64,000 nt of DNA from Phytohabitans maris. GTDB taxonomy: Bacteria; Actinomycetota; Actinomycetes; Mycobacteriales; Micromonosporaceae. The translations under genes were made by a program, and so were the position numbers. The stretch is taken from the NCBI RefSeq assembly GCF_031085175.1, contig NZ_JAVHUY010000007.1, forward strand, positions 124,001-188,000, in the 5' to 3' direction. The notes below the pieces were generated by a model, which searched no databases, was not told the DNA's origin, and saw only the letters and a program-made list of their open reading frames with translations. Shown one piece after another: positions 32,113-35,790 of this stretch. Every line of letters starts with the position of its first letter. Position 1 is the stretch's first letter.

Positions 32113-33837
32113 GTGAGCGTGGCGGGCGACAAGCGATACACCCCTGTCGTCGGCGTGCGCGCCTTCTTCACCGCTGCGGCGTTCCTTTCCCTCCTGTTTG
32201 GATACATAGGTCTACATCAGTACATGGGGGATTCCGCCCGGTTTTCCGACGTCCTCTACAACGCCCTGCAGCTCTTCGTCCTCGGGTCGCCGGCGACCGA
32301 CGACGGCGGCCCGTACCCGTTGTCCTTGGAGATCGCGCGCTTCGCCGCACCCGCCGTCACGTTCTACGCGCTGGTGGAGGCGCTCCGGCTGGTCTTCGCG
32401 GCGGAGGCCGAGCGGCTGCGCGCCCGGCGGGCGCGGGGCCACGTGGTGATCTGCGGCGACGGCCCGGTCGCCACCACCCTGTCCCGGCAGCTGCGCGCCG
32501 CCGGCCACCTGGTCGTGCACATCGCCGACAGCCGCAGCGGGGCGGTCGGCAGCCGCCGGTCGCTGCTCTGGGTGCTCGGCGACGCCCGCGACCCGGAGGT
32601 GCTGCGGGCGGCCGGGGTCGCCCGCGCCAGCGCCCTCTACGCCTGCGCCGAGGACAGCGCCACCAATACGGCCATCGCGCTCGCGGCCGGGCGGCGGCAG
32701 CGCGGCGAGCGCCCGCTGGCGGTGTACGCCCAGGTGCAGGACCAGGAGCTCTGCCTCGCCCTCCAGGCCCGGCACCTGGGCACCAGCGAGCCGCCGACGA
32801 TCCGGCTCGACTTCTTCAACATCGACGACGTGGCCGCCCGCCACCTGCTGGCCAAGGACCCGATCGTTCCCCCGCTCGACCGGCCGCCGCGGTTTCTCGT
32901 CGTCGGCGCCACGGCGTTCGGCCGCGCGGTCGTCGTGGAGCTGGCCCGGCAGTGGCGGGTCCTGCCGCCGGCCGCGATGTGGCGGGTCGAGGTGGCCGTG
33001 GTCGACGACGCGGCCACCCAGGTGATCGACGAGCTGAGCTTCCGGTACCCGTTTCTCAGCAAGGCCTGCGACCTGCGGCCGTACGACGGGGACCTGCTCG
33101 CGGTGCTGGCGGGAAAGGTCGCTCCGGAGGCACCCGACCGGGTCTTCATCTGCCACGACGACGAGCAGGTGGCGCTGAAGACCGCGCTGATCGCCGACCG
33201 GCTGTGGCGGGGCGGGCCGGGCACGGTGATCGTCCGGCAGGACCAGCTCGCCACCCTCCAGGACGCCTTCGACGGCGCCCGCGACGAGCGGCTCTTCGAC
33301 GAGGTGTCCGGCACGCTGCGCCTCTTCGGGGTGGTCGACGCGGCCTGCGACCCCGGCCTGATCCGGGACGACCTCGGCGAGCGCCTCGCCCGGGTGGTCC
33401 ACGAGAGCTACCGGGCCGCCCGGCGGCGGCGCGGCGACGGGCCGGACGACAGCCCGTCCCTGGCCCCGTGGCCGCGGCTGGCCGACCTGTACAAGGTCGA
33501 AAACCGGGCACAGGCCACCGACATCGGCCGCAAGCTGCGCGCGATCGAGTGCGTCCTCGCGCCACGCGTGGCCGCCGGCCAGGAGTACGTCTTTACGACG
33601 CAGGAGGTGACCCGACTGGCCATCACAGAGCACGAGCGGTGGCTGCAGGCCCGGCTGCGTGAGGGCTGGCGGTTCGCCGAAGCAGCGGACTACGACCGTA
33701 TGCTGCATCCAGGAATCCGACGTTGGGACGACTTGCCGGAGAGCATACGGAGGGTGAACTCAGACGCCATTCGTGAGCTGCCCGGGATACTCGCCGACTA
33801 CGGCTTCCGCATCGTGCGGATGAGGGAAGGTTCCTGA
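32113..33837 (+). CDS. Two-TM membrane protein with two TrkA-N/RCK-like Rossmann domains and a C-terminal RyR domain
   Basis: The 574-residue protein begins at GTG 32113 after GAAGGCGAG. TM1 is about residues 13-37 (AFFTAAAFLSLLFGYIGL). A re-entrant-looking segment FSDVLYNALQLFVLGSP lies before TM2 (about 77-97, FAAPAVTFYALVEALRLVF), as in two-TM ion channels, but no TVGYG-like filter is present. GHVVICGDGPVATTLSRQL begins the first RCK/TrkA-N domain (about 108-240), and RFLVVGATAFGRAVVVELAR the second (about 258-390). The last 70 residues fit the RyR repeat: ITEHERWLQARLREGW, DYDRMLHPGIRRWDDLPES, and INR-like VNSDAIRELPGIL. In prokaryotes RyR domains are predicted sensors of nucleotide-derived messengers in conflict systems. 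The stop overlaps the SLOG start (TGATG). A gated membrane effector is the working inference. Confidence 0.85.
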   Translation: MSVAGDKRYTPVVGVRAFFTAAAFLSLLFGYIGLHQYMGDSARFSDVLYNALQLFVLGSPATDDGGPYPLSLEIARFAAPAVTFYALVEALRLVFAAEAERLRARRARGHVVICGDGPVATTLSRQLRAAGHLVVHIADSRSGAVGSRRSLLWVLGDARDPEVLRAAGVARASALYACAEDSATNTAIALAAGRRQRGERPLAVYAQVQDQELCLALQARHLGTSEPPTIRLDFFNIDDVAARHLLAKDPIVPPLDRPPRFLVVGATAFGRAVVVELARQWRVLPPAAMWRVEVAVVDDAATQVIDELSFRYPFLSKACDLRPYDGDLLAVLAGKVAPEAPDRVFICHDDEQVALKTALIADRLWRGGPGTVIVRQDQLATLQDAFDGARDERLFDEVSGTLRLFGVVDAACDPGLIRDDLGERLARVVHESYRAARRRRGDGPDDSPSLAPWPRLADLYKVENRAQATDIGRKLRAIECVLAPRVAAGQEYVFTTQEVTRLAITEHERWLQARLREGWRFAEAADYDRMLHPGIRRWDDLPESIRRVNSDAIRELPGILADYGFRIVRMREGS

Positions 33838-34364
33838 TGGCGCGCATTGGGATAACCGGCCACGCTCGACTCGTGGGCGAGACCACGGAGCTCGTCTACG
33901 ACGCCGTGGTCGCCGCCCTCCGTCCCTATGCGGGCTCCACGTTTCACGGCATCACCTGCCTGTGTGACGGCGCCGACCAGATCTTCGCCCGGGCCGTGGT
34001 CGAGAGCGACGGCGCTCTCCAGGTCGTCCTTCCCGCCGACGACTACCGGGAGAGCATCGTCGACCGCGACGACTTCGACCACTTCCTCTCCAAAGCGATC
34101 CAGGTCGCACGTATGCCGTTCCAGTACTCCAACCGGCAAGCCTTCCGGGCGGCCAGTGAGGAGCTGCTCCGGCGTAGCGATGTGCTCTTCGCCGTCTGGG
34201 ACGGGCAGCCCTCCCACCATCTGGGCGACACGGCGGATGTGGTGCGGGTGGCGCGGGGCCTCGGCGTGCCGGTGGTGGTCGTCTGGCCGGAGGGTGCACG
34301 GCGCCTGCCTGAGCCTCTCGTCGCGACGGACCTGGCGGCACGAAAGGAGCCAGGCGGTGGATAA
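33837..34364 (+). CDS. SLOG-superfamily (DprA/YpsA-like Rossmannoid) protein
   Basis: A 175-residue single-domain protein opening ARIGITGHARL, the strand-loop typical of YpsA/DUF1273-type SLOG domains (G-x-[ST]-G-H-R). CLCDGADQIFARAVVES carries the second nucleotide-contact segment (GAD). Later, EELLRRSDVLFAVWDGQPS and GLGVPVVVVWPEGAR fit the remaining Rossmann strands. SLOG domains bind or process nucleotides and nucleotide derivatives, and recur beside RyR, TIR and SLATT genes in conflict systems. ATG 33837 shares a base with the preceding stop, and the next gene's GTG lies inside its 3' end. The three genes are therefore translated as a unit. Which ligand it handles is unknown. Confidence 0.8.
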   Translation: MARIGITGHARLVGETTELVYDAVVAALRPYAGSTFHGITCLCDGADQIFARAVVESDGALQVVLPADDYRESIVDRDDFDHFLSKAIQVARMPFQYSNRQAFRAASEELLRRSDVLFAVWDGQPSHHLGDTADVVRVARGLGVPVVVVWPEGARRLPEPLVATDLAARKEPGGG

Positions 34365-35727
34365 TACGGCAGTGGATTCCCCCCTCGTCCTCTTCATCGC
34401 GATGCCCGGAAGCGACATGGGCCCGCATGCCGCGTGGACCGATATCGAGGAGATCAAGCAGCACCTGTATATCCCCGTGGCGCGCGATCTGGGCGAACGG
34501 CTTGGCATCCACGTCGATCCGCGGATCGAGAAGGACAAGACCAGCCAAGGCATGATCCATCAGTCAATGTTCAACGAGGCACTTGAGGCACCGGTCTACA
34601 TCGCGGACCTTTCCGGAGCAAACCCAAACGTCTACCTCGAGCTTGGCGCCCGCTGGGCGCTTCGTGACAACGTAACGGTACTCACCTGCCAGGATCTGGT
34701 GCACGACATCAGGTTCAACGTCGCCGCCAACCGTGTCATTCGGTATGGCCGCGGGCCCTCGGAGATAGAGCTGAGTCGGCAGCAGATCGTCTCCGCGATT
34801 GTGGAAGGTCTGCGAAGCAAGCACACCGACAGTCCGGTCAGACAGAATGCGGCTGTGGTGAGCGTGAGTCGAATCGAGCTGTCCGACCTACGGTCGGAGG
34901 TGGCCAGACTCCGTCAAGAGCGCGGCGAGGAGCTCGTGGCTGCGGCGTTGAGGGCCGACCACGAGGAGCGGATCCGAATCCTGGGTATGGCGCTCGACAG
35001 CAATCCCGCCAACTATCGCGCGCATTTCCATCTCGGTGTCGCCATGCGGCTGCGGGGCGACTATGCGGGAGCGCTGGCGCACCTGCGGCGGGCGACCCGG
35101 TTCAACCCAGAAGACGCACGCAGTTGGCAGGAGCTCGGCGTCACCCAGAGCCAACACGGCGACCTGGATGACGCTATCGAGTCGTTAGAGCAGGCGCTGA
35201 CGTTCGATCCGACCTCCGCCGAGGCCTACTCCAACCTCGGGGGCGTCTACCGCCGCAAGAGCAGGTCCGAGGATCCGGCCGTGCCGCTCGACATGACAAC
35301 GCTCCGGCTGGCCCGCGACGCCTACCACAACGCGGCCAGAATCAACGCGCGAGACACCTATCCACTGCTAAACGTGGCCAAGATCGATCTGCTGCTGGCC
35401 GGGCAGGAGATCGTCCTCCAGCACAAAGCCCTCGACGCCTATCGGACGCTGGAGGATCTGGCGCGATACACCGCCCGGACCGAGGGCACCGACGACCCGT
35501 GGCGCTGGTTCGACCTGGCGGAGATCCTTGCGGTAAACGGAAAGCCGGAGGAGGCGGTCGACGCGCTGAGCCAGGGGTTCGCCCATCTGGAGGCGAGCTA
35601 CTGGGGGACCGCCGCCCTCTCCGCCAGCGCGCCGCTGCGCGACTTCATCGTGACCGCGGCACTGCCGGAAGACCGCGTCTCCTCGGTCAAGGCCATCCTG
35701 GAGGAGTACGAGGAACGGCTCGCCTAG
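34357..35727 (+). CDS. NDT/TIR-like effector domain fused to TPR repeats
   Basis: GTG 34357, eight bases after AAAGGAG and overlapping the SLOG gene, gives 456 residues. The N-terminal domain (about 8-160) begins PLVLFIAMPGSD and contains QGMIHQSMFNEALEAPVYIA followed by DLSGANPNVYLELGARWALR. This pattern, with a conserved acidic residue in YLELG, belongs to the nucleoside 2-deoxyribosyltransferase/TIR-like superfamily whose members cleave nucleosides or NAD. A short coiled coil (about 170-200, LSDLRSEVARLRQERGEEL) leads into TPRs (about 205-440, e.g. HFHLGVAMRLRGDYAGALAH, SWQELGVTQSQHGDLDDAIE). The C-terminus also reads as helical repeats. The likely role is sensing and effector function in the RyR/SLOG system; the enzymatic activity is unproven. 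Codon use looks less G/C-extreme than the flanking sugar genes. Confidence 0.8.
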   Translation: MDNTAVDSPLVLFIAMPGSDMGPHAAWTDIEEIKQHLYIPVARDLGERLGIHVDPRIEKDKTSQGMIHQSMFNEALEAPVYIADLSGANPNVYLELGARWALRDNVTVLTCQDLVHDIRFNVAANRVIRYGRGPSEIELSRQQIVSAIVEGLRSKHTDSPVRQNAAVVSVSRIELSDLRSEVARLRQERGEELVAAALRADHEERIRILGMALDSNPANYRAHFHLGVAMRLRGDYAGALAHLRRATRFNPEDARSWQELGVTQSQHGDLDDAIESLEQALTFDPTSAEAYSNLGGVYRRKSRSEDPAVPLDMTTLRLARDAYHNAARINARDTYPLLNVAKIDLLLAGQEIVLQHKALDAYRTLEDLARYTARTEGTDDPWRWFDLAEILAVNGKPEEAVDALSQGFAHLEASYWGTAALSASAPLRDFIVTAALPEDRVSSVKAILEEYEERLA

Positions 35728-35736
35728 CGCCCGCCT

Positions 35737-35790
35737 GTGATCAAAGCTCCCGTCAAGTCGTTCTAGCGACTTGACGGGAGCTTTGATCAC
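35737..35790. terminator. Perfect long palindrome, family A copy 2
   Basis: A flawless 24-base stem (35737-35760 with 35767-35790) encloses the loop TTCTAG. The outer sequence GTGATCAAAGCTCCC matches family A copy 1 at 6060. The palindrome covers the stop codon of the minus-strand CE7 gene and lies ten bases after the TPR gene, so it can terminate both. Confidence 0.9.

Follow-up and report, generated by a model that had tools for sequence, protein, structure and literature searches.

A conserved RCK-RyR and SLOG gene pair of Micromonosporaceae, possibly encoding a bacterial channel under the control of a nucleotide-derived messenger

Our results identify a stable gene pair in the Micromonosporaceae: gene A, which encodes a membrane protein with RCK domains and tandem RyR repeats, and gene B, which encodes a YpsA-type SLOG protein. 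The best reading of these sequences is that the RyR pocket of gene A would bind an ADP-ribose-type ligand without hydrolysing it, with the SLOG protein as its partner. We give a probability of about 0.4 to the view that the pair is a ligand-gated membrane protein with a nucleotide-binding SLOG partner, working by the mechanism set out below, so gene A may be a bacterial channel under the control of a nucleotide-derived messenger.

The window, that is, the whole stretch of 64,000 nucleotides that was analysed, comes from Phytohabitans maris, a soil actinobacterium. In it, genes A, B and a third gene, C, lie in the same direction on the forward strand (32113-33837, 33837-34364 and 34357-35727), and the overlaps of 1 and 8 bases reported in the earlier note agree with the ORF coordinates. 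An alternative start of gene A at 32119 is possible, as the orthologue L114 opens with MAGDK. All three genes are under purifying selection when compared to P. flavus (omega 0.21, 0.11 and 0.12 for A, B and C, respectively). The earlier note had proposed the three genes as one system. However, gene C follows the dyad in just 2 of the 40 co-directional A+B dyads found in 40 Micromonosporaceae genomes, the A-B-C order being restricted to two Phytohabitans species, and gene C has stand-alone relatives elsewhere, which rules out the triplet as one conserved system. The stable unit is the A+B dyad, and C is the part that changes. Note that gene A of L336 (genome G780) is split over two frames and was counted as a dyad. 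Among 19 order-level relatives, the SLOG gene was directly downstream of gene A in 13, convergent in 1 and absent in 5.

In Phytohabitans the dyad occupies the same site in five of six species, with a variable gene after it. This constancy also fits a different explanation, in which A and B are a physiological sensor of the nucleotide or NAD state, serving ion or redox homeostasis, and gene C is a recent, unrelated neighbour. We consider this quite possible, although short of an even chance. In support of it, the upstream gene has an asparagine synthase-like start in at least 8 of 20 dyads (starts were read, not scanned; the neighbours of these 20 come from ORF starts and in-house profiles, without a Pfam scan), no match was obtained in 72,556 plasmid records, and no RCK-RyR gene was confirmed in viral contigs. 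Against it, 11 of the 40 genomes have an FxSxx_TPR (STAND-type) gene no more than 10 kb from the dyad among the matches listed, compared to 0.57 expected if kinship is ignored; 5 of these 11 dyads belong to one genus. These distances were read by hand from the match listing, and G248, at about 18 kb, was left out. The distances used for G772 and G776 are larger than those to the nearest gene edges, with no effect on the count of 11. L047 has a DUF4062-NACHT-HEAT gene upstream (as do L048 and L050, judging from the shared start), and in G667 a TIR gene directly follows the RCK-RyR gene; both also argue against simple homeostasis. A TIR-like FxsC adjoins the dyad in G299.

These recurrent TIR/STAND neighbours suggest a defence role, but 29 of the 40 dyads have no FxSxx_TPR gene within 10 kb among the matches listed, and many have common metabolic neighbours. 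FxSxx-COOH peptide-processing/TIR-STAND-TPR systems are recurrent neighbours of the dyad, although the window's own dyad does not adjoin one, and the part of the account used here (PMC7159879) names no RyR or TrkA component. Fusions point to a nucleotide link as well: a RelA_SpoT-TPR-S-SLOG-RyR protein is encoded divergently from an RCK-RyR gene; in a second genome, another contig encodes a TPR-SLOG-RyR protein. The LSDAT_prok (SLOG) matches of both proteins are under the Pfam cut-off. Together with the linkage to SLOG in 13 of 19 relatives and the RyR domains that bind cADPR isomers (see below), these fusions support the previous idea of a nucleotide-linked membrane protein.

Gene B (core residues 1-157; the tail has a pLDDT below 50) was modelled because a PDB profile search, with a best value of 0.37, gave no name to its SLOG domain. 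The AlphaFold model (pLDDT 84, pTM 0.81) has YpsA as its top fold match (8.8e-9, TM 0.74) and adopts the Rossmannoid SLOG fold. In Pfam, YpsA was the one match of gene B, at E 0.27, and 4 of 16 family members matched it at E up to 1, the best at 8.1e-4. The fold matches include the BcThsA SLOG bound to 3'cADPR (8.4e-4), TRPM2 (6.7e-3) and also LOG structures. The presence of the latter, and the tight coupling of A and B in dyads without gene C (gaps of -11 to +10 bases in the 17 co-directional pairs measured), would suit a scheme in which the SLOG protein produces the ligand of gene A, much like the release of a base by LOG enzymes, and gene C is dispensable. We regard this scheme as unlikely, since the nearest fold is YpsA and not LOG. 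Moreover, reading the gene B family alignment by eye gave no PGGxGTxxE, the LOG phosphoribohydrolase motif, in the conserved WDG...GxT stretch. The same SLOG family is also paired with NsdA-like XRE-TPR regulators, which suits a sensor at least as well. In viral contigs, 28 loci had SLOG relatives, and at 8 of these an NsdA-like match lay upstream (E up to 1e-5); no SLOG was found in the INPHARED phages. In the part of PMC9503650 used here, cADPR sensors are counted among the members of the YpsA-like SLOG clade.

Gene A encodes a protein of 574 residues with the order 2TM-RCK-RCK-RyR-RyR. Both membrane helices of the earlier note were placed, at 32146-32202 (about residues 12-30; Kyte-Doolittle window 1.87) and 32341-32397 (about residues 77-95), although the second is of moderate hydrophobicity (1.57). 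Between them lies a pore-loop-like segment (32233-32322), without a TVGYG-type K+ filter. The T[VIL]G[YFL]G filter was absent from the first 110 residues of all 52 sequences scanned, this region being present in 50 of them (absent in L265 and L336), and a K+ channel identity of gene A is therefore unsupported by the filter region. A G[YF]G[DE] match occurs once, within the GGFGDLP of L370, N-terminal to helix 1. The helices are followed by an RCK1/TrkA_N Rossmann domain (32443-32754; Pfam 2.2e-14), which matches the 'TrkA domain protein' 4gx0 (1.8e-6), presumably GsuK, and by a second RCK-like Rossmann segment (LVVGATAFG; 32893-33312), recognised from the sequence and the family alignment and without a Pfam match. 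Gene A thus resembles the RCK-gated two-helix channels such as 4gx0, but lacks their filter and has an added RyR module.

This module ends in a C-terminal RyR domain (PF02026; 33607-33822; 7.4e-10, 39.4 bits versus a curated cut-off of 27.4). Among solved structures, the RyR part of gene A has matches to RyR repeats (6uhi, 6.4e-14) and also to bacterial chains named 'putative ryanodine receptor', of which 3nrt (3.4e-6) is an example. A first, degenerate repeat, missed in the earlier note, lies upstream (33379-33567; His430, Asn464); it was placed by alignment and by the profile in relatives, where it is clear (1.7e-8 in L053, 0.0084 in L114), and has no separate profile match in the window's own protein. 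The phage protein RyDEP uses His75, Trp78 and His100 as ligand residues and Asp117 as the general acid (PMC13232231, a 2026 preprint on phage proteins, cited here throughout from part of its text). RyR domains of RyDEP and its relatives bind 2'/3'cADPR, and one of them also hydrolyses it; six out of eight phage relatives bound the signals when tested, and the cited part reports cleavage for none (PMC13232231). The same His/Trp/His set is kept at identical spacing (0, +3, +25) in all 40 dyads (His507, Trp510 and His532 in the window), while position +42, that of the catalytic Asp, is never Asp (N in 38, C in 1, A in 1; Asn549 in the window). Since the catalytic Asp is an Asn, the pocket would bind its ligand without hydrolysing it. 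That gene A is instead a signal terminator, its RyR module hydrolysing cADPR-type signals like RyDEP, agrees with its place in the RyR family and with the conservation of the pocket residues but is very improbable, given the absence of the general acid in 40 of 40 dyads and the six phage relatives that bind with no cleavage reported.

Relatives without a visible SLOG gene have Asp at +42 in 10 of 11 cases, L062 and L065 among them. Their pockets differ beyond this residue, since the second His is present in 5 of 11 and the Trp in 10 of 11. L264 has Asn at the catalytic position and no visible SLOG, and in L261 a contig end cuts the downstream side, which bears on its SLOG-free status. The association between Asp/Asn and SLOG (Fisher 7e-10) ignores phylogeny and groups L061 with the dyads. 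Because the residue states mostly track one clade (support 0.968), the link rests on about two independent cases, the main clade and L061. L348, a second convergent case, has no RyR row in the residue table.

Gene C combines an NDT/DRHyd-like domain (34384-34821), assigned by alignment and profile, with a TPR/TPR-S region (34942-35385; PF20308, 2.2e-11). Its N-terminal profile matches DNPH1/Rcl (5.3e-5) with the catalytic-type glutamate of the ELG motif aligned, and Asp84, Asn89, Val92 and Glu95 (codon 34639-34641) are invariant across 14 rows. The NDT model gave weaker fold matches to TIR-STING, SpbK and SARM1, low in TM (0.36-0.46 over the query for the best-ranked). With this, profiles and structure prediction bear out the domain identities first proposed for A, B and C, respectively 2TM-RCK-RCK-RyR, SLOG and NDT-like plus TPRs. 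No SIR2 or TIR match was obtained in Pfam for the three proteins, and the PADLOC models matched neither A nor B, their sole match being TIR-effector for C (1.6e-5).

In the ligand-gated reading that we prefer, a trigger felt by the TPRs would switch on gene C, which would act on a nucleotide or NAD-type molecule by cleaving an N-glycosidic bond. The ADP-ribose-type product would be bound, and not hydrolysed, by the RyR pocket of gene A, and binding would act through the RCK ring so that the pore opens or closes. The SLOG protein could serve as a second sensor of ligand, or set the threshold by processing ligand. Where the dyad lacks gene C, the ligand would come from an enzyme, TIR or other, whose gene lies elsewhere. 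A more specific form, in which an ADP-ribose-type messenger directly gates the channel via an R12-like tandem, with SLOG as co-sensor and the channel as an infection or stress effector, is in our opinion doubtful.

RyR, SLOG and TIR/DRHyd domains were reportedly catalogued in nucleotide-centred conflict networks by Burroughs et al. in 2015. Our literature search found nothing on this RyR/TrkA/SLOG architecture among the records listed, and we do not claim its absence from print. Thoeris (TIR plus the SIR2-SLOG ThsA) shares the logic of a TIR/NDT-class enzyme with a SLOG domain, and BcThsA is among the fold matches; however, SIR2 is missing here, SLOG is a separate YpsA-like protein and the effector would be a channel. 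As in the R12 region of the animal ryanodine receptor, whose RyR1 repeats gave the 6.4e-14 match, the RyR repeats of gene A are in tandem and belong to a membrane protein, but one with two helices, two RCK-like domains and putative ion conduction instead of a giant receptor. The C-terminal domain of gene A is a relative of that part of animal calcium-release channels which binds nucleotides. The phage RyDEP and sponge-type RyR proteins share PF02026 and the ligand residues with gene A, which differs in being a chromosomal membrane RCK protein with tandem RyR repeats and Asn at +42 (PMC13232231).

Studies on the direct action of cADPR-type molecules on ryanodine receptors through the RyR repeats have been called for (PMC13232231). 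Gene A offers a small bacterial protein in which ligand binding and gating are testable, because its tandem RyR module is carried by a compact membrane scaffold and its relatives divide naturally into those with Asp and those with Asn. If our reading is true, a channel-type effector would join bacterial NAD-derived signalling. In the more specific form with direct gating, the control by NAD metabolites that is known for TRPM2 and has been proposed for RyR would have a prokaryotic counterpart.

Finally, a perfect 24-bp palindrome lies 3' of gene C, outside the unit (35737-35790, no strand assigned; arms 35737-35760 and 35767-35790). The inverted repeat described in the earlier note is real, but not its role in closing the unit. 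A terminator scan, weak in itself (shuffle mean 0.9), found nothing, and the 22-base arm had no match in five other Phytohabitans species or in the reversed control. Since this arm has 230 matches in the genome, the palindrome is a copy of a dispersed repeat and not the terminator of the unit.

The window is C67:124001-188000 of a 9.9 Mb genome; a locus in it had been described in an earlier note as a candidate three-gene nucleotide-sensing system ended by a palindrome. The three overlapping genes are indeed present, all on the plus strand: gene A (32113-33837), encoding the membrane protein with RCK-like domains and a RyR module, overlaps gene B (33837-34364), the SLOG gene, which in turn overlaps gene C (34357-35727), encoding an NDT-like domain with TPRs. 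The start of gene A is perhaps at 32119 rather than 32113, as an orthologue (L114) begins with MAGDK there (window 32113-32119). Phytohabitans flavus is the closest named relative at the three-gene locus, and omega against it is 0.21, 0.11 and 0.12 for genes A, B and C, respectively. The perfect 24-bp palindrome (35737-35790) does not close a unit; it is one copy of a dispersed repeat family, its 22-nt arm (up to two mismatches) having 230 matches in this genome and 0 for the reversed control. The same arm search gave 0 matches in five other Phytohabitans species.

In 298 genomes of the order Mycobacteriales, gene A was found in 20 places above 190 bits, the window's own included; in the 19 others, a SLOG gene lies directly downstream on the same strand in 13, is convergent in one (L061) and is not seen in five. 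The gene B SLOG family is present in 70 of 121 Micromonosporaceae genomes as 83 copies, all of which were examined for neighbours. RCK-RyR profile matches occur on the stretches of 31 copies: 29 of these copies adjoin the match in the same direction, L348 is convergent and L341 is remote. A further 11 copies lie beside an NsdA-like regulator (tblastn) and 41 were classed as other. Among the 52 copies lacking an RCK-RyR match, 17 have a common upstream family of XRE/TPR type, and nine of these are among the 11 NsdA-like cases. A member of this SLOG family often follows an NsdA-like XRE-TPR regulator as its partner gene, on viral contigs too (L004:4439-6477, L306, L215-L224). Both searches combined gave 40 distinct co-directional A-B pairs (dyads) in 40 genomes, and gene C follows two of them; the proposed three-gene system is not conserved. 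Five Micromonosporaceae genomes, all from a single genus (L094-L098), have a distant NDT-like gene 10-12 kb from the dyad, as found with an NDT profile that itself included L094, and in L371 such a gene lies about 3 kb from the dyad.

Six Phytohabitans genomes were searched, and in five the dyad has the same XRE-cupin and M24-peptidase genes as neighbours; full-length gene A was not found in G301. Gene C follows the dyad in the window's genome and in the P. flavus chromosome (G298), an esterase gene comes immediately after it in G302, and unrelated genes come after it in G300. In G299 the dyad is succeeded by a TIR-like FxsC gene and, beyond that, by KGGVGR-AAA and TIR-NB-ARC-FxSxx_TPR frames. 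Thus, the third position is variable in this genus, and is occupied twice by NDT/TIR-class plus TPR genes. The FxsC-like gene of G299 adjoins the dyad in two reading frames (L114:5583-7186, minus strand), through sequence error or decay.

The domains assigned to gene A were confirmed. Pfam reports TrkA_N and RyR, and phmmer matches solved RyR repeats (6.4e-14), the bacterial 3nrt protein and the RCK chains 4gvl/4gx0; the second Rossmann segment, which Pfam does not report, is visible in the 16-row family alignment. A RyR profile built from this alignment detects in relatives an additional, degenerate repeat immediately before the main one (e.g. 1.7e-8 in L053); this repeat gave no separate match in the window's protein. 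Since the family also keeps His430 (invariant) and Asn464 (nearly so), the RyR module is probably tandem, as in animal RyR. None of 52 sequences, of which 50 cover the region, has a TVGYG-type filter in the loop between the two helices; the architecture, and not a filter, suggests that gene A is a channel.

According to a 2026 preprint (PMC13232231), the phage protein RyDEP cleaves 2'/3'cADPR via His75 and Asp117, with Trp78 bracing the adenine and the phosphates held by His100. Eight other phage relatives were examined there: six bind the 2'/3'cADPR signals, and none is reported to cleave them. The RyDEP spacing (0/+3/+25/+42), counted by hand, also fits the RyR1 chimera row. The window's gene A has His507, Trp510, His532 and Asn549 at these positions, and thus an Asn where RyDEP has the catalytic Asp117. 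His/Trp/His are kept in 40/40 dyads, in which the fourth residue is N in 38, C in one and A in one. Ten of 11 relatives without a visible SLOG have D there and one (L264) has N; of these 11, the Trp is kept in 10 and the second His in five. N is also the residue of the convergent L061, and there is no RyR row for L348 in this comparison. All 40 dyads fall in one clade (support 0.968), which also holds L060 (no SLOG, D; placement support 0.164), and L061 lies outside. The link between SLOG presence and loss of the Asp therefore counts about two independent cases, and is suggestive rather than proven.

Gene B had no curated Pfam match (YpsA only at E 0.27). Among 16 relatives, YpsA was matched in four (best 8.1e-4) and Nuc_deoxyrib_tr in two (best 0.0011). 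Its structure model, from 15 sequences (pLDDT 84, pTM 0.81), upheld the SLOG identity: YpsA was the top Foldseek match (8.8e-9, TM 0.74), followed by ShosA, DprA and LOG-like proteins, the BcThsA SLOG bound to 3'cADPR (8.4e-4) and TRPM2 (6.7e-3).

The NDT/TIR-like and TPR assignment of gene C also held. Its N-terminal profile matched DNPH1/Rcl (5.3e-5), PycTIR (0.015) and Cap12 (0.28); its ELG motif lines up with DNPH1, and Asp84, Asn89, Val92 and Glu95 are invariant in a 14-row alignment. In the fold search with its model (pLDDT 79), nucleoside deoxyribosyltransferases rank first (1.2e-4, low TM), above DNPH1, TIR-STING, SpbK and SARM1; the TPRs include TPR-S (Pfam). Stand-alone relatives occur in four genomes (G215, G290, G295 and G012; 39-49% identical along most of their length), and another, in G026, lacks the N-terminal 60 residues and has an RCK-RyR gene about 8 kb away.

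The most likely role of the RyR module is to bind, but not hydrolyse, a ligand of the adenine-dinucleotide or ADP-ribose type; it would act through the RCK ring on the membrane part of gene A. SLOG would be a second sensor or processor, and gene C a possible local source of the ligand. The genes may have a role in defence; the chief competing explanation is a homeostatic membrane module that takes no part in conflict. In 11 of the 40 genomes, which represent five genera with one genus supplying five of them, an FxSxx_TPR gene (NF040586) is no more than 10 kb away from the dyad. The number of these genes per genome predicts 0.57, and the highest count in 200,000 random draws was six, with the relatedness of genomes uncorrected in both figures. 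The other 29 dyads have no such gene at that distance.

L047 carries a DUF4062-NACHT-HEAT gene upstream of the dyad (domain scan), as do L048 and L050, judged by a common start. At least 8 of 20 dyads have an upstream gene whose start, the part read, resembles asparagine synthase. A gene that joins a caspase domain to a trehalose-synthase-like amylase is convergent with the dyad at L054:10250-12847 (minus strand), and is also present in L057-L059, judged by the common start.

Finally, at 1e-20 the gene A profile matched 14 of 396 Actinomycetota genomes. Long RCK-RyR matches occur in six besides the window, and the gene B SLOG family was seen beside RCK-RyR in 0 of these six, the downstream side of L261 ending with the contig. 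A TIR gene is directly downstream of RCK-RyR in G667 and about 5.6 kb away in G317, and a WD40 gene is convergent in G441. In G596, a RelA_SpoT, TPR-S, TRPM-type SLOG and RyR protein (L262:9214-11922; SLOG match below the Pfam cut-off) is divergent from the RCK-RyR gene, and G467 has a TPR-SLOG-RyR protein on a different contig. These RyR/SLOG/TPR fusions link the window's domain kinds independently of the triplet. The other RyR proteins encountered have weak kinase-like matches or nothing known; among them, L269, L271 and L273 have RyR at the C-terminus together with weak, sub-threshold protein-kinase-like matches. A further RyR match in the window's genome, at G000:C5:86943-87149 (L378), scores 25 bits, under the cut-off of 27.4.
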